In this document: one piece after another, positions 4,072 to 21,032 of the stretch
How the letters are laid out: each line of letters begins with the position of its first letter
Numbering within the stretch: position 1 is the stretch's first letter
Notes under the pieces: generated by a model
Told to the model about the DNA's origin: nothing
Seen by the model: the letters and a program-made list of their open reading frames with translations, nothing else
The model's database searches: none
Source: an uncultured Acidimicrobiaceae bacterium
Lineage (GTDB): Bacteria; Actinomycetota; Acidimicrobiia; Acidimicrobiales; Aldehydirespiratoraceae
Assembly: GCA_913041415.1 (NCBI GenBank)
Contig: CAJWHS010000008.1
Coordinates: forward strand, 1-52,384
Direction of reading: 5' to 3'
Length of the DNA: 52,384 nt
Made by a program: the position numbers and the translations under genes

Positions 4072-5064
4072 ATGGCCGACGAGGTACTCACCGCACCGCT
4101 GGTGCTCGAATACCCCTTCACCCGAACGACTGGACCGGTGATTGGAGGATTCCTCACCGGCCTGCGAGAAGGGGTGATTCACGGGGTCCGCCGGTCCGAC
4201 GGCACCGTGATGTGTCCGCCCTTAGAGTACGACCCGATCACGTCGGCACCGCTGTCCGAACTCGTTGCCGTGGGAACGGTCGGCACCGTCACCACCTGGA
4301 CCTGGAACGGCGAGCCCCGAGCACAGCAGCCGTTCACCCAGCCGTTCGCCTGGGCGATGATCACCCTCGACGGCGCCGACACGCCGATGCTGCATGCGGT
4401 CTTCGTCGACTCCGCCGACGACATGGCCACCGGTATGCGAGTCGAGGTCGTGTGGCGCGACAAACGTGAGGGCCACATCATCGATATCGCTGGTTTCATT
4501 CCGGCCGTCGCCTCGACCACCGGCGAGCCTGGCGCAATGCCGGGCGACGTCGAGCAGATCCAGTCGGTACGAACCTCGATCCGGATGGAGTACACCTACA
4601 CGCCGGGCCGGGCGCTCTCGCAGTACCTGCGGGCGATGAAGGACAAGCGCATTCTCGGCGACACGTGCCCGGAGACGGGCGAGGTCTCGGTACCGCCCCG
4701 AGGGGTTTCCTCCGTGGCCGGCAAACCGACACTTCCGGAGCTGGTCGACCTTCCCGATACCGGGTACATCGAGTCGTTCAACATCACCCGGGTTCCGATC
4801 AAGATGCGTCCCGACCTCACCCCGCCGTACGTGTCGGCGTGGATCGTCCTCGACGGTGCGTCCGTCGGCTTCATGGGTCTCGGCATGAATGTTGAGCCCG
4901 AGGATGTCCGGGTTGGGATGCGGGTGCGGGCCGTGTGGAAGCCCGACGACGAACTCGAGATGAGCGCTCAGAACATCCTCGGCTGGGAACCCACCGGCGA
5001 ACCCGACGAGGTGATCACCGACTACGCCCGAGTCGGCCGTATCGAGCAAGGAGACGACCAATGA
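4072..5064 (+). CDS. OB-fold / DUF35 acyl-CoA-associated protein with two repeats
   Basis: 330 residues. The N-terminal half has VMCPPLEYDPIT followed by an OB-like segment (VGTVGTVTTWTW), and the C-terminal half repeats the pattern (LGDTCPETGEVSVPPRG, then an OB segment ending VGMRVRAVWKP). DUF35 proteins partner with thiolase-like enzymes, for example ChsH2 with Ltp2 in sterol side-chain removal. The start at 4072 has GGGAGG five bases upstream. Its stop overlaps the next start (ATGA), so it is translationally coupled to the first thiolase-like gene. The zinc-ribbon cysteines are reduced: the first half shows only one Cys near the expected site, so zinc binding is uncertain. Confidence 0.78.
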   Translation: MADEVLTAPLVLEYPFTRTTGPVIGGFLTGLREGVIHGVRRSDGTVMCPPLEYDPITSAPLSELVAVGTVGTVTTWTWNGEPRAQQPFTQPFAWAMITLDGADTPMLHAVFVDSADDMATGMRVEVVWRDKREGHIIDIAGFIPAVASTTGEPGAMPGDVEQIQSVRTSIRMEYTYTPGRALSQYLRAMKDKRILGDTCPETGEVSVPPRGVSSVAGKPTLPELVDLPDTGYIESFNITRVPIKMRPDLTPPYVSAWIVLDGASVGFMGLGMNVEPEDVRVGMRVRAVWKPDDELEMSAQNILGWEPTGEPDEVITDYARVGRIEQGDDQ

Positions 5065-6113
5065 GGGACGTTGCCGTCGTCGCCTTCAGCCAGCGACAAG
5101 AAGCCATGATCAACACCGAGTCCGAAGTCGAATTCATGGTGCCGCTTATGAACGAGGCCAAGGATGCCGTCGGTCTCACGCAACAGGAGATGGGGTTCAC
5201 CTGCTCGGGATCGTCGGACTTCCTCGCCGGTCAGGCCTTCTCGTTCGTGATGACGATCGATGGCACCGGCCCAGTTCCGCCGATCAGCGAAAGTCATGTC
5301 GAACAAGACGGTGCCTGGGCGCTATACGAAGCGTGGGTGAAGCTGCAGTGCGGCGACATCGACACCGCCTTCGTCTACAGCTACGGCAAGTCGTCGCCCG
5401 GTTCGTTGCGCGACGTGCTCGCTACCCAGATGGACCCGTACTACGTGGCGCCGCTGTGGCCCGACGCCTTTGCCATCGAAGCGATGGCTGCGCGCCAGAT
5501 GCTCGATCAGGGTGTCGTCAGCGAGCAGCAGTTGGCCGAGATCGCCAGTCGCTCTCGTGCGCACGCAGCGTCCAACCCACACGCCGTGCGCACTGCGCCG
5601 AAGTCCGTCGATGAGATCCTCGCCGAGGACTACGCGATGGCACCGTTGCGGCCATCCGACCTGCCCGCCTCCTCCGACGGCGGTGCGGTGATCGTGCTCG
5701 CCGCAGACGACAAGGCTCGTGAGTTGTGTGATCGTCCGGCATGGATCCGCGGGATCGACCATCGTTCCGATGCCCACACCCTCGGGGTGCGGGATCTCAC
5801 CACCTCGATGTCCGCCCGCATCGCCGCCGAGAAGGCCGGTATCGGCAACGACAAGATCGACATCGCTGAACTGCATGCCCCCTTCTCGTCGAGCGAGGCG
5901 GTACTCACGAAGGCCCTCGGCCTGGGTGGGGACACCGTGATCAATCCATCGGGTGGGGCGCAGGCCGCCCACACGATGATGGCTTCGGGGCTGATCCGAA
6001 TCGGAGAAGCAGCCCAACGCATCAGTTGCGGTGACGCCGACCGTGCGGTCGCTACGGCCGCCAGCGGTCCGTGCCTGCAACAGAATCTTGTCGCCGTCCT
6101 GGAGGGGGAGTGA
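5061..6113 (+). CDS. Thiolase-like protein (SCP-x / Ltp2 type), first of a pair
   Basis: 350 residues, overlapping the DUF35 stop by four bases. Thiolase fold cues: the start MRDVAVVAFSQRQ, MGFTCSGSSDFLAGQ near the usual nucleophile region, the central SDGGAVIVLAADD, and NPSGGAQAAHTMMASGLIRIGEA near the C-terminus. The catalytic set of ordinary degradative thiolases is not clear, as in the SCP-x/Ltp2 retro-aldolase group, so cleavage of a side-chain acyl-CoA together with the DUF35 protein is a reasonable inference. It may form a heteromer with the next gene, three bases downstream. Confidence 0.78.
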   Translation: MRDVAVVAFSQRQEAMINTESEVEFMVPLMNEAKDAVGLTQQEMGFTCSGSSDFLAGQAFSFVMTIDGTGPVPPISESHVEQDGAWALYEAWVKLQCGDIDTAFVYSYGKSSPGSLRDVLATQMDPYYVAPLWPDAFAIEAMAARQMLDQGVVSEQQLAEIASRSRAHAASNPHAVRTAPKSVDEILAEDYAMAPLRPSDLPASSDGGAVIVLAADDKARELCDRPAWIRGIDHRSDAHTLGVRDLTTSMSARIAAEKAGIGNDKIDIAELHAPFSSSEAVLTKALGLGGDTVINPSGGAQAAHTMMASGLIRIGEAAQRISCGDADRAVATAASGPCLQQNLVAVLEGE

Positions 6114-6116
6114 GTC

Positions 6117-7274
6117 ATGGGTAAGGAGCGAGCAGCCGTTCTCGGGGTCGGCCAGACCAAGTACGACACCACCTACCCCGGCTCGATGGCCGGGATGTTG
6201 CGGGAAGCCGCAACCAATGCGCTCGAGATGTCGGGCAAGTGTTGGGACGACATCGACGCCGTGATCATGGGCAAGGCACCCGACTTCTTCGAGGGTGTGA
6301 TGATGCCCGAGGTGTACCTCGCCGAGGCCCTCGGGTGCGTCGGCAAGCCGATCATGCGGGTGCACACCGCCGGGTCGGTTGGCGGTTCCACCGCATGCGT
6401 CGCCACGTCGATGATCCAGTCCGGTGTGCACGAGACCGTGCTCACGATTGGCTGGGAGAAACAGTCGGAGTCCAACGCAATGTGGGCGCTCTCGCTGCCT
6501 CAGCCGTTTGCCACGTCGGTCAACGCCGGCGCCGGCGGCTATTTCAGTCCGATCATTCGTCGCTACATGATGATGACGGAGGCGCCCGAGTTGATCGGTT
6601 GCATGGTGGCCCTCAAGGACCGCAAGCATGCGCTGAACAACCCGTATGCCCACCTCCATCAGCCCGAACTCACCTTCGAACAGGTCGTCGAGTCGCCGAT
6701 GCTGTGGGATCCGATCCGGTACAGCGAGACCTGTCCGTCATCCGACGGTGCGTGTGCGATCGTCCTGGGCAGCGAAAAGGTCGCCGAGGCTCACGACGGT
6801 CCGGTCGCCTGGATCAAGGGCATCGCCATGCGGTCGGAGTCTGGCTCTTTCGCGGGGCGCAACATGGTGTCGCCTGCAGCCTCGGAGGCCTGCGCCGACG
6901 ATGTCTTCGCCCAGGCAGGCATTCATGACCGGCGCAAGGAGATCGACGCCGTCGAGATGTACGTGCCGTTCTCCTGGTACGAACCGATGTGGCTCGAGTC
7001 CTTGGGGTTCGCGGAGAAGGGGCAAGGTTGGAAGATGGTCGAGGAGGGCGCCACGTCGATCGATGGCGGTGACCTTCCGGTCAACTGCTCGGGTGGCGTG
7101 CTGTCGTCCAACCCGATCGGCGCCTCCGGCATGATCCGCTTTGGTGAGGCCGCGCTTCAGGTCATGGGCCTGGCCGGCGACCATCAGGTCGACGGTGCCA
7201 AGACCGCCGTGGGACACGCCTACGGCGGCGCGGCGCAGTACTACGCCATGTGGGTGGTCGGCGCCGACAAGTAG
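6117..7274 (+). CDS. Thiolase-like protein (SCP-x / lipid-transfer type), second of a pair
   Basis: 385 residues. It has the thiolase start RAAVLGVGQTKYD, HTAGSVGGSTACVATSMI where true thiolases carry the nucleophilic Cys (here Gly/Ser occupy that place), SDGACAIVLGSEKVAE in the core and NCSGGVLSSNPIGASGMIRFGEA with the conserved glycine loop near the end. Loss of the normal Cys suggests aldolase-like or non-thiolytic chemistry. It is the last gene of the DUF35-thiolase-thiolase operon, with no clear terminator before the next promoter at 7433. Confidence 0.8.
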   Translation: MGKERAAVLGVGQTKYDTTYPGSMAGMLREAATNALEMSGKCWDDIDAVIMGKAPDFFEGVMMPEVYLAEALGCVGKPIMRVHTAGSVGGSTACVATSMIQSGVHETVLTIGWEKQSESNAMWALSLPQPFATSVNAGAGGYFSPIIRRYMMMTEAPELIGCMVALKDRKHALNNPYAHLHQPELTFEQVVESPMLWDPIRYSETCPSSDGACAIVLGSEKVAEAHDGPVAWIKGIAMRSESGSFAGRNMVSPAASEACADDVFAQAGIHDRRKEIDAVEMYVPFSWYEPMWLESLGFAEKGQGWKMVEEGATSIDGGDLPVNCSGGVLSSNPIGASGMIRFGEAALQVMGLAGDHQVDGAKTAVGHAYGGAAQYYAMWVVGADK

Positions 7275-7445
7275 GCGTCGCGCGTTCGGCGGGAGGTCGC
7301 CGGCACCGACGGCATGCACATCGGCACGATCCTTAAGCCGGTTTTCGGCGCGAGGTGATCTGCTGCCGTCGTGGTGGCGAGAATGACGCGCGAGACGCAC
7401 GAACAAACGAGAGCGGAAGCCGGTGCCGGCGCTAGGTTCGGCGTC

Positions 7446-8144
7446 GTGCGCATTCTTGTGGTCGATGACGAAGTCGAGCTCTCGGAGGCGGTCGCCCGCG
7501 GACTTCGTCGGGAGGGTTACGCCGTCGATCTCGCTCATGACGGCCCCGAAGCGCTGAGCAAAGCCGAACTCACCCCCTACGATCTGATCTGCCTCGATCT
7601 CACCATGCCGGGTATGGATGGCCTCGAGGTTTGTGCACAGCTGCGGGAGAACCCGCCCAGCGGCGAGCAACCACGGATCCTTATTCTCACGGCGCGCGAC
7701 AGCATCGACGAACGCATTGAGGGGCTCGATCACGGCGCTGACGACTACCTGATCAAGCCGTTTGCGTTCGGCGAACTCACCGCCCGGGTGCGGTCACTCA
7801 TGCGTCGCGAGGCGGCGGGCACCACGGCGATTTTCACGGTCGGCGACATCGAACTCGACGATGCGACGAAGCGGGCCAAGCGCGGCGCTCGTGAACTTGA
7901 TCTCACGGCCAAGGAATTCGCGCTGCTGCGCTACTTCATGGCTCACGTCGACCAGGTCCTGTCCCAGGAGCATCTGCTCGAGCACGTCTGGGATGAGCAC
8001 GCAGACCCGTTCACCAACACGGTGCGGGTCACCGTGGGCACGCTTCGTCGTAAGTTGTCTGAGGGCGACGAGACCCAGGCGATCGAGACCGTGATCGGAT
8101 CCGGGTACCGACTGATCGACTCTGGCGCCGACGCCGATGGCTGA
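7446..8144 (+). CDS. OmpR/PhoB-type response regulator
   Basis: 232 residues from a GTG. Receiver domain: acidic pocket DDE (residues 7-9), phospho-acceptor Asp51 in LDLTMPGMDG, and the lysine in LIKPF near residue 100. The C-terminal winged helix carries LDLTAKEFALLRYFM and NTVRVTVGTLRRKL. The GTG is preceded by TAGGTT (7433-7438) and a 7-base spacer, a leaderless layout, which is why upstream in-frame codons are excluded. Overlaps the kinase gene by 8 bases, so the two are coupled partners. The stimulus is unknown. Confidence 0.92.
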   Translation: MRILVVDDEVELSEAVARGLRREGYAVDLAHDGPEALSKAELTPYDLICLDLTMPGMDGLEVCAQLRENPPSGEQPRILILTARDSIDERIEGLDHGADDYLIKPFAFGELTARVRSLMRREAAGTTAIFTVGDIELDDATKRAKRGARELDLTAKEFALLRYFMAHVDQVLSQEHLLEHVWDEHADPFTNTVRVTVGTLRRKLSEGDETQAIETVIGSGYRLIDSGADADG

Positions 8145-9375
8145 CGAGACCCTGGCTGTCCGCGCCGCCGAGGCGCTGCCCGGGTGGGCCGGCTCGATCC
8201 GGTTCCGCCTGATGGTGCTCTACTCGGTGCTGCTCTTCGGACTCGCCACCGTGGTCGTCGGTGGCATTTATGCCGGACTCGCCCGGAGTCTCGAGGACCA
8301 AGATGTCTCCCGCACCGAAGAGGCCGCCGTGCTGTTCCGCAGTGCTGACGGTCGCGACATGATCGGCGCGCTCGAGTTCGAAGTCCAGGACCCGCTCGCC
8401 GTCTTCGAACGCGAGGTCAACGAGCAGGCGCTCGATCAGCTCCGCACGTATGCCTTCGGTGCGCTCGGCCTGCTGTTCATCGGCAGTCTCGGTGTCGGCT
8501 GGTTTGTCGCCGGGCTCGTGTTGCGGCCGGTCGGGCGCATCACCTCCGTTGCGCGCGAGATCTCTGGCACTGATCTCTCACGCCGCATTGAACTCGAAGG
8601 GCCTGATGACGAGTTGAAGCAACTCGCCGACACCTTCGATGACATGCTCACCCGGCTCGACGAGGCGTTCGAGAACCAGCGGGACTTCATCCACGAGGCC
8701 AGCCACGAGCTCCGGAACCCTCTCGCCGTCATCCGAACGAACCTCGATGTCGTGCTCTCCGACCCCAACGCCGAGGCGGAGGAACTCCGCTCGGCAGGTG
8801 AGGTCGTGGGTCGCTCTGCTGAGCGCATGACAACGCTCGTCGACGACCTGCTCGTCTATGCCCGCCACGGCACTCGTGCGATGCGCGAGGAGGAGTTCGA
8901 CCTCGCGCAGCTCGTCAGCCATCTCGCCGATGAGTTCGCTGCGCCGGCCGACGCCGCAGGTCTGGCGCTCACCAAGCAACTGCCCGGCGAGCTCCTTCCG
9001 GTGTGTGGTGATGCTCCGGCGGTTCGGCGCGCGGTCGCCAACCTGATCGCCAACTCGGTGCGACTTGCGCCCGACGGCACGAACGTCACGGTGTCGGCCG
9101 ACCGGTTCGACGACTGGAACTTCGTTTCCGTCGCTGATGACGGCCCCGGCATTGCGCCGGAGAACCATGTCCGTGTGTTCCAACGCTTCTGGCGCGGCGA
9201 CCGGGAGGAGGCCCGTCAACAGGGTCGTTCCGGTCTCGGACTCACGATCGTTCGCCAGATCGTCGAGGCGCACGGCGGTCGGGTCGACCTCGCCTCCGAC
9301 ATCGGACACGGTTCGACCTTCGTCCTGTGGTTTCCTCGGAGCCTTGCGTCGCCGCTGCCCGAAGCCGGCGTCTGA
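8137..9375 (+). CDS. Membrane sensor histidine kinase
   Basis: 412 residues. Transmembrane segments at about 25-47 and 106-128 flank a short extracytoplasmic part of about 55 residues, followed by a HAMP linker (LRPVGRITSVAREIS). The phospho-acceptor is His190 in FIHEASHELRNPL. The ATPase part shows the N box NLIANSVRLAPDG, the G1 box DDGPGI, and the G2 box GRSGLGLTIV. Start overlaps the regulator stop, so the pair forms one two-component system. The small sensor loop gives no hint of the ligand. Confidence 0.93.
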   Translation: MADETLAVRAAEALPGWAGSIRFRLMVLYSVLLFGLATVVVGGIYAGLARSLEDQDVSRTEEAAVLFRSADGRDMIGALEFEVQDPLAVFEREVNEQALDQLRTYAFGALGLLFIGSLGVGWFVAGLVLRPVGRITSVAREISGTDLSRRIELEGPDDELKQLADTFDDMLTRLDEAFENQRDFIHEASHELRNPLAVIRTNLDVVLSDPNAEAEELRSAGEVVGRSAERMTTLVDDLLVYARHGTRAMREEEFDLAQLVSHLADEFAAPADAAGLALTKQLPGELLPVCGDAPAVRRAVANLIANSVRLAPDGTNVTVSADRFDDWNFVSVADDGPGIAPENHVRVFQRFWRGDREEARQQGRSGLGLTIVRQIVEAHGGRVDLASDIGHGSTFVLWFPRSLASPLPEAGV

Positions 9376-17365: not shown

Positions 17366-17715
17366 ATGGCCACCTCCGACAAATCCAAAGCTGTCCTCGG
17401 GCAGTGGGGTGAGCGCCGCGTTGCCCCCACTACGAGTCCGCGGCCTACGTCGTCTTCGATCTCAATTGGCGCGTGCAGGGCGGCGAGCTCGACCTCGTGA
17501 TGACGCGGGGTGACAAGATCGTGTTCTGCGAGGTCAAGACTCGAAGCAGTGGGCGGTTCGGCTCGGGCTTCAAGGCGGTCGATGAACGGAAGTAACGCTT
17601 CCTGCGTTGCGCCGCCTTGTCATGGCTCGACGCCCACCGTCGACGTGGTCGTCTCCGATTCGATGTCGCCACGGTCACCGGTCCACGGATCGAGATCGTC
17701 GAAGTGGCGTTCTGA
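17366..17715 (+). pseudogene. yraN: Broken YraN (UPF0102) endonuclease-like gene
   Basis: Translation begins MATSDKSKAVLGQWGERRVA and then needs a one-base frame change near 17426-17428 to continue as HYESAAYVVFDLNWRVQGGE, LDLVMTRGDKIVFCEVKTRS and FGSGFKAVDERK, the signature of the YraN family with its nuclease-like E-x-K (EVKTR). A TAA at 17594-17596 then replaces the usual Gln of RKQ, after which the family-like tail (RFLRCAALSWLDAHR, up to IEIVEVAF) continues to a TGA at 17713. Two independent lesions in an otherwise well-kept sequence indicate recent loss. A TAGGTT box with a 6-base spacer still precedes the ATG. YraN normally sits beside comM, which is also destroyed here. Confidence 0.85.
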
Positions 17716-17803
17716 TCGAGCGGTTGGCAAGGTTCGCCCGATGCCGAGTCCTGAAGGTGGGCGTTCTGTTGTCTGTCGTGGGGCGGCCACTCGGTGCGGC
17801 GCG

Positions 17804-18028
17804 CTAGCGGCCCTTCTTCTTCGAGCGAGCCTTGCGGGTCTTGCGGCCGTCCCAGCAGCCTCGGTGCCAGTGCCGACGCAGGTCAGGAGCTTCCTTGGGC
17901 ACGATGGCGTAGTGGCCGGTGCCCGGCTCGATGTCGCGGTTGCAGTTCGGACACACGTACCACTTGTTCGTCTGGTACGGCTGCAGGAAACGGACATCGA
18001 CCTCCCCGTAGGCCTCTGGATCGTCCAT
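17804..18028 (-). CDS. Small zinc-ribbon-like protein (CxxC ... HWHxxC)
   Basis: 74 residues from ATG 18028. Cys26-x-x-Cys29 (YVCPNCN) and His53-Trp-His55-x-x-Cys58 (RRHWHRGCW) could hold one metal ion; the tail is highly basic (KTRKARSKKKGR), suggesting nucleic-acid contact. Similar small actinobacterial proteins exist but have no proven function that I know of. Its ATG overlaps the stop of the upstream 38-residue membrane protein by one base (TGATG), so the two are coupled. Confidence 0.7.
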   Translation of the reverse strand: MDDPEAYGEVDVRFLQPYQTNKWYVCPNCNRDIEPGTGHYAIVPKEAPDLRRHWHRGCWDGRKTRKARSKKKGR

Positions 18029-18144
18029 CACGCGCTCCCGAAGAAGACCCACAGCAGCAAGAGGACCCCAACAACGATTGTTGCGCCGACGAACACGTAG
18101 TCGGCGGGGCGACGCCGATGTGGCCGTGTGGGGTCCATTCCCAT
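18028..18144 (-). CDS. 38-residue single-helix membrane protein
   Basis: ATG 18144 to the TGA at 18030-18028. A basic N-terminus (MGMDPTRPHRRRPADY) leads into one hydrophobic helix (VFVGATIVVGVLLLLWVFF). The stop overlaps the ATG of the zinc-ribbon protein, which argues that it is a real gene. A second ATG two codons in (18138) is also possible. No family recognised. Divergent from the cytochrome gene. Confidence 0.55.
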   Translation of the reverse strand: MGMDPTRPHRRRPADYVFVGATIVVGVLLLLWVFFGSA

Positions 18145-18165
18145 GGGGTCAGTATCGTCGTTGAC

Positions 18166-18540
18166 GTGCGTTCCGCAACCTCGGCCCCCGTGCTCGTTCG
18201 CATCGTTCTCGTGGTCGCCTTCGTCCTCCCACTCGGTGCGTGCGCTGGTGAGTCACCCGAAGTTCCCCTCGGCCCCGACGGCACCCCCGATCCGGCGTTG
18301 ACGATGGGACGCGACGTGTACTCGCAGCGCTGTGCGAACTGTCATGGCGCCGGTGGTGGGGGCGGCACCGGTCCGAAGTTGAGCGACGGGCAGGTGATCA
18401 TCGCCTACCCCGATCCGGCTGATCAGCGGTTGCTGATCGCCAACGGCCGCAATGCCATGCCGTCGTTCTCCGGTTCGCTCTCGAGTACTCAACTCGACGC
18501 GGTCGTCCGCTACACCCGCGAGGTGTTGTCCCAGTCCTGA
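18166..18540 (+). CDS. c-type cytochrome lipoprotein
   Basis: 124 residues from a GTG. The signal peptide ends in a lipobox LPLGAC, with Cys26 as the lipidated residue. The mature part has one heme site, CANCH (in YSQRCANCHGAGG), and a likely axial Met in NAMPSF. It would carry electrons at the outer face of the membrane. The start is supported by TATCGT (18153-18158) with a 7-base spacer, a leaderless layout. No oxidase or dehydrogenase partner is adjacent. Confidence 0.88.
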   Translation: MRSATSAPVLVRIVLVVAFVLPLGACAGESPEVPLGPDGTPDPALTMGRDVYSQRCANCHGAGGGGGTGPKLSDGQVIIAYPDPADQRLLIANGRNAMPSFSGSLSSTQLDAVVRYTREVLSQS

Positions 18541-18608
18541 CGTAGGAACGCCATGCGATTGATCGTCGGCGTGACGGCGACTTCCACCCGTTCTTTTGTC
18601 TAGGTCCC

Positions 18609-18919
18609 ATGTTCGCCACCCTGGTGTCAGCCACCCTGTCCGGCGTCGAGGGCTGGTCTGTCACCATTGAGGTTCAGGTTGCAGATGGGTGTGCGCCGGT
18701 CCTCGACGTCGACGACGTGCTGGTCGCACTCGGGCCCACATCAATCGTCGGGGATGGGCTCGGCGGGGCAGAGGTGGTCATCCCGTGGCATCTGCGCGCG
18801 GTTTTCGATGCGGTCGATGACGGCCCTACCGCGGTCGACCAGTGCTCGATGTCGTCACGTCGCTCGCTGAGTTGGTTGCGTCCGGTCACGTCGTCGATGA
18901 CGGCGTCCGGGTGCGTTGA
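18609..18919 (+). pseudogene. comM'-'dprA deletion scar
   Basis: The first 27 codons (MFATLVSATLSGVEGWSVTI and EVQVADG) are the start of a ComM/YifB Mg-chelatase-like helicase. At about 18687-18692 the sequence changes to CAPVLDVDDVLVALG, the end of the DprA Rossmann domain, and after DDGPTAVDQ the frame shifts by two at about 18842, continuing as LDVVTSLAELVASGHVVDDG to a TGA at 18917: the DprA C-terminal winged helix. The bulk of comM and most of dprA are therefore missing, joined inside one 311-base remnant. The first frame stays open into xerC by chance. ComM and DprA act in natural transformation and recombination, so both functions are lost here. Confidence 0.78.
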
Positions 18920-18971
18920 GCGTGACGTGGCCGCGCCATCACCGTGCGTGAGGCACGACTACAGTGTGTGT

Positions 18972-19850
18972 GTGGCTGCCTGGTACGTCTCCGCCTGGCT
19001 CGAGTCGCTCACGCGTATCGCTCCGTCGACCCGCAGCGTCTATGAGCGTGACATGGCGGCGGCGGTCGCCTGGCTAGACGAGCACGGTGTCACCAATCCT
19101 TCGGCGGTCGAGCGGCGCACGCTGCGGGCCTACCTCGCCGATCTCGAACTTTCCGGCTACGCCCGCCGCACGATCGCTCGCAAGGCGTCGGTGCTACGCC
19201 GCTATTTCGACTGGGCGCGGCGCACGGGACGGGTCGAGAGCGACCCAAGCGCAGCGCTCACTGCGCCGAAGGGCACCGCCAACCTTCCCACCGTGTTGAC
19301 CGCCGCCGAGATGGACGGCCTTCTTGAAGGGTCCGCCCGAGCCGCCGGCGAGCCCGGCGAGATCGACCTCCGCGATCGAGCGGTTATCGAGTTGCTCTAT
19401 GGCAGCGGGATACGGGTGAGCGAATTGTGCGGTCTCGAACTCGACGACATCGACAACAGCGGGGTGCTCCGGGTCTGGGGCAAGGGGTCCAAGCAACGGA
19501 TCGTGCCCGTCTCCGAAGCGGCCGCCGACGCGGTCTCCCGGTGGATTCGTGAGGGTCGACCGAGCATGGTCACCGCCGATACTGCGAAGCCCTCACTGTT
19601 CCTCAACCGGGCGGGCCGCTCGCTGACACCGCGCGATGTGCGACGCATCCTCGATCGTCGAGCGGTATCCCCGACGCACCCGCATGCGCTGCGTCACACC
19701 TTTGCCACTCATCTTCTGGACGGAGGTGCCGATTTGCGTGCTGTGCAGGAAATGTTGGGTCACTCCGATCTCGCCACCACCCAGATCTATACCCGGGTCA
19801 GTCGCGAGCGCATGCGCGACGTTCACCGATCGACACACCCGCGCGCCTAG
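18972..19850 (+). CDS. xerC: Tyrosine recombinase XerC
   Basis: 292 residues. The N-terminal SAM-like domain (residues 1-100) is followed by the catalytic domain with Arg148 (GSGIRVSEL), the lysine turn GKGSKQR (171-176), His238-x-x-Arg241 (HALRHTFATHLL), His264 (LGHSDL) and the nucleophile Tyr273 (QIYTRV). It resolves chromosome dimers at dif with XerD. The start is placed at GTG 18972 because TACAGT (18960-18965) lies 6 bases upstream; the longer open frame belongs to the comM/dprA scar. A location just before rpsB is the usual actinobacterial one for this chromosomal Xer, so it is not a mobile-element integrase. Confidence 0.9.
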   Translation: MAAWYVSAWLESLTRIAPSTRSVYERDMAAAVAWLDEHGVTNPSAVERRTLRAYLADLELSGYARRTIARKASVLRRYFDWARRTGRVESDPSAALTAPKGTANLPTVLTAAEMDGLLEGSARAAGEPGEIDLRDRAVIELLYGSGIRVSELCGLELDDIDNSGVLRVWGKGSKQRIVPVSEAAADAVSRWIREGRPSMVTADTAKPSLFLNRAGRSLTPRDVRRILDRRAVSPTHPHALRHTFATHLLDGGADLRAVQEMLGHSDLATTQIYTRVSRERMRDVHRSTHPRA

Positions 19851-20047
19851 GACTCCCGTGGTCGAACGCGTCGATGACATCGATTGCGTTGGCCCAATGG
19901 GGGTGTGGTTGGTGCGATCGTCGTTGGTTCTCGGTCGAGGTGAACGCCCCGCTTTGGGGAGGCTCCGTCGGGGTGGCCCGGTAGCATGGCGGACGGTCTG
20001 TTCGCAGACTCTGTGCAACCTCACAAGGAGGTCGTCAGCCAACGTCA

Positions 20048-20108: not shown

Positions 20109-21032
20109 ATGGCAGTCATTTCCATGAAGCAGTTGCTTGAAGCCGGCGTCCACTTTGGGCATCAGACCCGTCGCTGGAACCCGAAGATGAAGCGCTTCAT
20201 CCACGGTGAGCGCTCCGGCATCCACATCGTCGACCTGCACCAGACGCTCACCCACCTCGAGTCGTCCTACGTGTTCGTTCGCGATCTCGTCGCCAACGGC
20301 GGCACTGTGCTGTTCATCGGTACGAAGAAGCAGGCCCAGGACTCGATCCAGTCCTACGCCGAGCGGTGCAACATGCCCTACATCAACGAGCGGTGGCTCG
20401 GCGGCATGCTCACCAACTTCCAGACCATCTCGAAGCGTGTCTCGAAGATGCAGGAGTATCGCCGCATGCGCGACTCCGGCGAGTTCGAGGCCATGCCTAA
20501 GAAGGAAGCCCTCCTTATCAGCCGCGAGCTGACCAAGCTCGAGCGCAACCTGGGCGGTATCCGCGACATGCAGAAGCTACCCGCCGCCGTCTTCGTGCTC
20601 GACACGAAGAAGGAGCACATCGCCGTCACCGAAGCTCGCAAGATCGGCATCCCGATTGTCGCGGTCGTCGACACCAACTGCGATCCCGACCTCGTCGACT
20701 TCGCTATCCCCGGCAACGACGATGCGATTCGTGCAGGTGAACTCATGAGCCGTGTCATCTCCGACGCAGTACTTGAGGGCCGTTTCATCCGCTCGAAGAA
20801 GGCCGAGGCCTCGGGTGAGGCCCCGGCTCAGCGCAACGTCCTCGAAGAGGCCGAGATCGCCGAGCAGCAGGACCGGGCCCGTGCCGAGGCTGCCGCCGAG
20901 GCCGCCGCTCGCGAAGGCCGTGTGGCCGCTGCAACGGCCGAGGCCGACGCACCGGCCGCCGAAGATGACGCGCCTGCCGATGCCGAGGAAGCCACGCCCT
21001 CCACCGGCGATGAAGGCACCACCGAGTCCTGA
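20109..21032 (+). CDS. rpsB: Ribosomal protein S2 with acidic Ala-rich tail
   Basis: 307 residues. S2 features: [53 protein letters not shown], and [12 protein letters not shown]. After about residue 235 a 70-residue tail rich in Ala, Glu and Asp extends past the usual length of about 240-260. Starts the rpsB-tsf-pyrH-frr group, the standard bacterial order. Confidence 0.97.

Follow-up and report, generated by a model that had tools for sequence, protein, structure and literature searches.

A comM'-'dprA deletion scar and the repeated loss of competence genes in a genus of uncultured Acidimicrobiia

The window analysed here is a single contig (C8) of 52,384 bases, which lies within the draft genome G000 (2.68 Mb, 96.9% complete) and carries, just upstream of an intact xerC, a confirmed deletion scar: a pseudogene in which the first codons of comM are joined to the last part of dprA. 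We have little doubt that this scar was left by a deletion through the two genes once the lineage no longer used natural transformation, a process in which DprA and ComM protect incoming single strands, help to load RecA, and extend heteroduplex. Judged from the loss of genes, natural transformation has very probably disappeared convergently in this genus, the habitat of which is apparently marine. Our comparison covers nine genomes of the genus (G000 and eight others, G001–G008) and a wider sample of 61 genomes of the order, representing 34 genera, with the intact locus of G003 (L032) serving as the reference for alignments. The assemblies of the genus are all multi-contig drafts of 85–98% completeness (85–89% for G001, G002, and G005, and 98% for G004), in which single absences could be gaps. 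In the literature on Acidimicrobiia and competence, we found no study of this genus.

The scar and its intact counterpart

In G003, the locus consists of yraN (116 aa), a gene for a small zinc-ribbon-like protein encoded on the opposite strand, cytochrome c, comM (501 aa), dprA (a 406-aa frame), xerC, a whiG-type sigma factor gene (258 aa), an M23 peptidase/alpha-beta hydrolase gene (546 aa), and rpsB. The original prediction had read the ancestral order from the remnants as yraN-comM-dprA-xerC-rpsB, and the genes that it listed are all present in G003, although it omitted cytochrome c, whiG, and M23. Intact comM-dprA orthologues occupy the same syntenic place, with aligned flanks, in G003, G006, G007, and G008. 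DNA identity between G003 and the window is ~92–94% on both flanks of the scar, and synteny remains unbroken for many kb on each side at 91–94% identity. The window aligns with G003 over 17801–18676, as far as comM codon ~23, and again over 18684–19884, from dprA codon ~319 on, with 2.2 kb missing between the comM start and the dprA tail; comparison with a relative that retains the intact locus thus confirms both the deletion and its boundaries (Table 1). Farther upstream, G006 carries downstream of yraN an additional transporter-like gene of ~400 aa (L033 3081–4327), which is absent from the G000/G003 subclade, and G007 has an insert of similar size after yraN. The window itself holds ~58 bases after yraN (17724–17781) that are not in G003, and the proposal that they are a remnant of this transporter-like gene was rejected, comparison having given no match.

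Table 1. Features of the scarred locus, in window coordinates
Feature	Position	Strand	Evidence or remarks
yraN pseudogene	17366..17715	+	1-bp deletion at ~17425, nonsense TAA at 17593-17595; aligned to G003 yraN
comM remnant: start codon and 27 codons	18609..18689	+	21/27 aa identical to G003 ComM; DNA alignment to 18676
413-codon open frame, comM start through scar to xerC	18609..19850	+	ORF listing
Deletion joint comM'/'dprA	18681..18688	+	Three-way junction alignment with G003; parental copies share GCCGAyGG
dprA 3'-end remnant	18684..18925	+	Shares the comM frame to ~18835, frameshifted beyond; tblastn, alignment
25-bp deletion, frameshifting	18835..18836	+	Flanked by two CGA trinucleotides; global alignment to G003 dprA
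xerC, intact	18972..19850	+	95% aa identity to G003
whiG-type sigma factor remnant, first 9 codons	19858..19884	+	Junction alignment with G003
M23 peptidase/alpha-beta hydrolase 3'-end remnant	19880..19943	+	Joint TCGAT at 19880-19884; alignment with G003
rpsB, intact right-hand anchor	20112..21032	+	96% aa identity to G003

The fused frame opens with its ComM part, MFATLVSATLSGVEGWSVTIEVQVADG, and continues directly and in frame with the DprA part, CAPVLDVDDVLVALG, whereas after the 25-bp deletion the DprA part is read in another frame as VLDVVTSLAELVASGHVVDDGVRVR. Tblastn against G003 DprA gives 64% over residues 266–348 in the fused frame and 100% over residues 326–348 in the next frame; similarity to DprA is thus clear in two frames, and both the in-frame fusion of 27 ComM codons to a DprA tail and the frameshift within that tail had been called correctly. 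Only ~80 C-terminal residues of DprA are left in the window, split over the two frames, and the dprA reading frame is disabled by the missing core domains, the frameshift, and a new stop. The codon at 18917–18919, which had been taken for the original DprA stop, is this new one (CGC to TGA), the ancestral TGA lying two codons on at 18923–18925. An Asp-Gly does stand at the joint, its codons being 18684–18689 rather than 18687–18692 as first placed. Guidance of the deletion by short homology, also part of the original prediction, is plausible in view of the motif shared by the parents (7/8 identical), but the argument is weak because that motif is common in the window (33 copies).

Nor does the supposition of one deletion do justice to the locus, which was hit by the 2.2-kb and 25-bp deletions and by a separate one of 2.4 kb between xerC and rpsB (G003 counterpart, L032 2882–5390). 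The last of these removed the whiG-type sigma gene together with the M23 peptidase gene and fused the first nine whiG codons to the final ~20 of the M23 gene. The yraN frame is open in G001, G003, and G005, and looks truncated in G004.

It has also to be considered whether the fused frame encodes a functional new protein, in which the ComM start and the DprA tail, acting as a leader or N-terminal extension of XerC, are kept by selection. The comM'-'dprA joint is in frame in G000, G005, G004, and a genome of another genus (G032), these four being the only scars in which the start region of comM and the tail of dprA are both retained, and different later indels in G000 and G005 let the fused frame reach xerC without a stop. 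However, chance joining at short comM/dprA matches in the G003 sequence falls in frame at a rate of 0.40–0.46, because comM and dprA share codon-phase composition, and four in-frame joints out of four have p ~0.03–0.04. Moreover, the G005 copy of the fused frame lacks an ATG, the G004 copy contains stops, and the N-terminal extension of the xerC frame lacks both conservation and any Pfam domain, the XerC integrase domains being the only Pfam matches on the 413-codon frame. Since in G003, with dprA intact, the frame ahead of xerC is comparably open, as is expected in GC-rich DNA, the 413-codon frame needs no special explanation. The case for selection on the fused frame was judged weak when set against the chance in-frame rate; we regard the four in-frame joints as a curiosity and a functional fusion as very improbable, and we treat the spot as a pseudogene in what follows.

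Transformation genes across the genus and the order

Profile searches found no DprA (PF02481, the Rossmann-like DNA_processg_A domain) in the window or in the G000 genome, no match over the cut-off to full-length ComM/YifB (TIGR00368, AAA+ Mg-chelatase-like) in that genome, and no comEC, comEA, or pilus ATPases (PF00437) there either. A PF13541 match on G000 contig C40 was rejected as ComM, as it covers profile positions 59–119 only, in a 454-aa frame that is probably RadA. An intact copy of comM or dprA elsewhere, which would have made the scar a mere duplicate, is thus absent from the 96.9% complete genome, as is any other dprA, comEC, or comEA. The original prediction had linked the loss of DprA to the loss of natural transformation, a proposal that gains further support from the absence of comEC, comEA, and every pilus ATPase.

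The same five families (dprA, full comM, comEC, comEA, and PF00437) are all present in four of the nine genomes of the genus (G003, G006, G007, and G008) and all absent from the other five (G000, G001, G002, G004, and G005). The pilus ATPases of G003 lie in clusters that resemble those of Tad (Flp) pili, judging from the sequences of the neighbours; besides tad1 (see below), a second tad locus is intact there on contig C38. A TGA flagged in the match to a tad ATPase of G003 is most simply explained as the gene's own stop. Across the order, dprA is present in 53/61 genomes and comEC in 48/61 (28 of 34 genera), so that the loss in this genus, though unusual, is not the only one. G032, from another genus of the family, is without dprA and comEC and has its own in-frame comM'-'dprA scar; there (L236 10880–11243, minus strand), ~14 ComM codons and ~108 C-terminal residues of DprA form an uninterrupted fusion.

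Fragmented drafts of 85–98% completeness invite the suspicion of an assembly or binning artefact, that is, of a chimeric join with the com genes left on unbinned contigs. Against this, the synteny described above is unbroken on both sides of the scar, the five gene families are missing from exactly the same five genomes, one comEC joint is shared by two separate assemblies, and the completeness of G004 is 98%. The comM-dprA, comEC-comEA, and tad scars all lie inside contigs despite the draft state of the assemblies, and we consider that an artefact can be dismissed almost entirely in favor of true deletion.

Between whiG and rpsB, the M23 gene is likewise intact in all four genomes of the genus that keep the transformation set. 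All five that lack the set have lost it, through different deletions that number at least two or three, and C-terminal stubs are left in G001, G002, and G005; a TAG flagged in the G008 match does not interrupt the frame. Among the 61 relatives, M23, counted as present where the match is strong and more than a stub, accompanies comEC in 46 of 48 genomes, compared with 2 of 13 genomes lacking comEC (Fisher p = 1e-8, without correction for ancestry). In Neisseria gonorrhoeae, type IV pilus expression is described as being affected by an M23 peptidase (PMC11980366). That the actinobacterial protein belongs to the transformation machinery, where it would make an opening in the wall for the pilus or DNA, is a tentative proposal that we hold to be possible but doubtful; a competence or pilus role of some kind is plausible for this candidate gene from its pattern of occurrence, and the alternative is that its loss reflects co-erosion of adjacent, unneeded envelope genes. 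In four genomes from separate families of the order (G044, G051, G056, and G057), dprA is kept while comEC and the M23 gene are absent, which suggests that DprA has a use, or decays more slowly, without DNA uptake. In G051, the M23 gene is cleanly absent between rpsB and whiG, with dprA, xerC, and whiG present and comEC absent. In the DprA tree, G019, G044, G051, G056, and G057 are not grouped together, although many of its deep nodes are unresolved.

Number and order of the losses

In G003 coordinates, the comM-dprA deletion joins 5133–5155 to 7386–7389 in G000, 5266 to 7469 in G005, and 5003 to 7621 in G001, and that of G004, clearest when compared with G006 and G007, is yet another one. At the tad1 locus (L171 2300–10440, on G003 contig C66), there are four different deletion joints in G000, G001, G002, and G005, those of G000 and G005 being 4969 to 8131 and 4809 to 8070, respectively. 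The comEC-comEA joint is 6851 to 9289 in both G000 and G005, and 6900 to 9226 in G001. As each of G000 and G005 still has bases of dprA, comM, and tad that are missing from the other, neither's comM-dprA or tad1 deletion can derive from the other's, and the combination of a common comEC-comEA joint with incompatible comM-dprA and tad scars places the loss of the channel first on this branch. In the ancestry of G000 and G005, therefore, comEC went first, and DprA/ComM and the pilus were lost later, separately in each line.

A 23-kb tree resolves the genus as ((G000,G005),(G003,(G001,G002))), with G004 beside G006 and G007, which keep the genes, and with support of 98/99 for the node uniting G003 with G001/G002, although the nesting of G003 among the genomes that lack the genes rests on a short branch. 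With genomes that keep the genes also lying outside, parsimony requires three changes, which we read as three losses. It might nevertheless be argued that the four subclade genomes lacking the genes descend from a single ancestral loss that was later widened by erosion, with G003 being their sister or having had the locus restored by recombination. The shortness of the branch that joins G003 to G001/G002 would allow this, as would a smaller 10-kb set, which gives the same tree and does not reject one clade of these genomes (AU p = 0.136). Some deletions are moreover nested, that of G001 over those of G000 and G005, that of G002 over that of G001, and the whiG-M23 deletion of G000 over that of G005, and such pairs (G001 over G000, G002 over G001) could have arisen as a single older deletion eroded further. 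Yet the AU test on 23 kb rejects a single clade of the four (G004 left aside, p = 0.02), and no one wide deletion explains both G000 and G005, each of which keeps bases lost by the other. The position of G004, in the other clade with G006 and G007, makes its loss separate in any case. We consequently regard a single ancestral loss as unlikely, and complete losses that were also separate in G001/G002 and in G004 as shown with good support.

Such a history fits a process that begins with the loss of the ComEC DNA channel and continues with the separate decay of DprA, ComM, and the pilus. Without ComEC and pili, DprA and ComM would have no substrate, so that deletions through them would be neutral; the locus may then be worn down by deletions between short repeats, whereas selection would preserve xerC and rpsB next to it.

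Significance and relation to known systems

The genus offers a rare case in which the steps in the loss of a gene-transfer mechanism can be put in order in wild, uncultured bacteria whose relatives are only a few percent apart, and with it a natural experiment on the effect of losing transformation on recombination, defence, and genome content. It also suggests that the M23 peptidase gene may be a hitherto uncharacterised competence gene of Actinomycetota, a candidate that is testable in Micrococcus luteus. In that species, transformation depends on comEC and tad genes, and the few com genes that can be recognised include DprA (PMC4322843). The genomes of the genus that keep the machinery carry the same comEA-comEC, tad, and dprA set as this Tad/Flp-dependent system (PMC4322843, PMC8467076), but in Acidimicrobiia the transformation role is assigned by homology, and we found no experimental data.

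In Legionella pneumophila and Acinetobacter baumannii, transformation genes have been lost or disrupted within species (PMC11472951), and the likeness is that close lineages turn non-transformable, with damage to com genes included. There, however, loss is mostly tied to mobile elements and the machinery genes are seldom hit, whereas in the present genus simple deletions have taken out the whole gene set, and no element was seen where the ends are joined. ComEC loss has been surveyed across bacteria and amounts to 10.7% of actinobacterial strains (PMC6299819), which likewise concerns a channel protein missing from some members of a lineage whose ancestor had it; many of those cases are endosymbionts or intracellular pathogens, unlike the genomes without the machinery here, which at 2.4–3.1 Mb are close in size to those that keep it (2.3–3.3 Mb). 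The loss of competence genes is thus a known kind of event, and it is the repeated, ordered, and complete character of the loss, together with the link to the M23 peptidase, that raises the interest of the present case.
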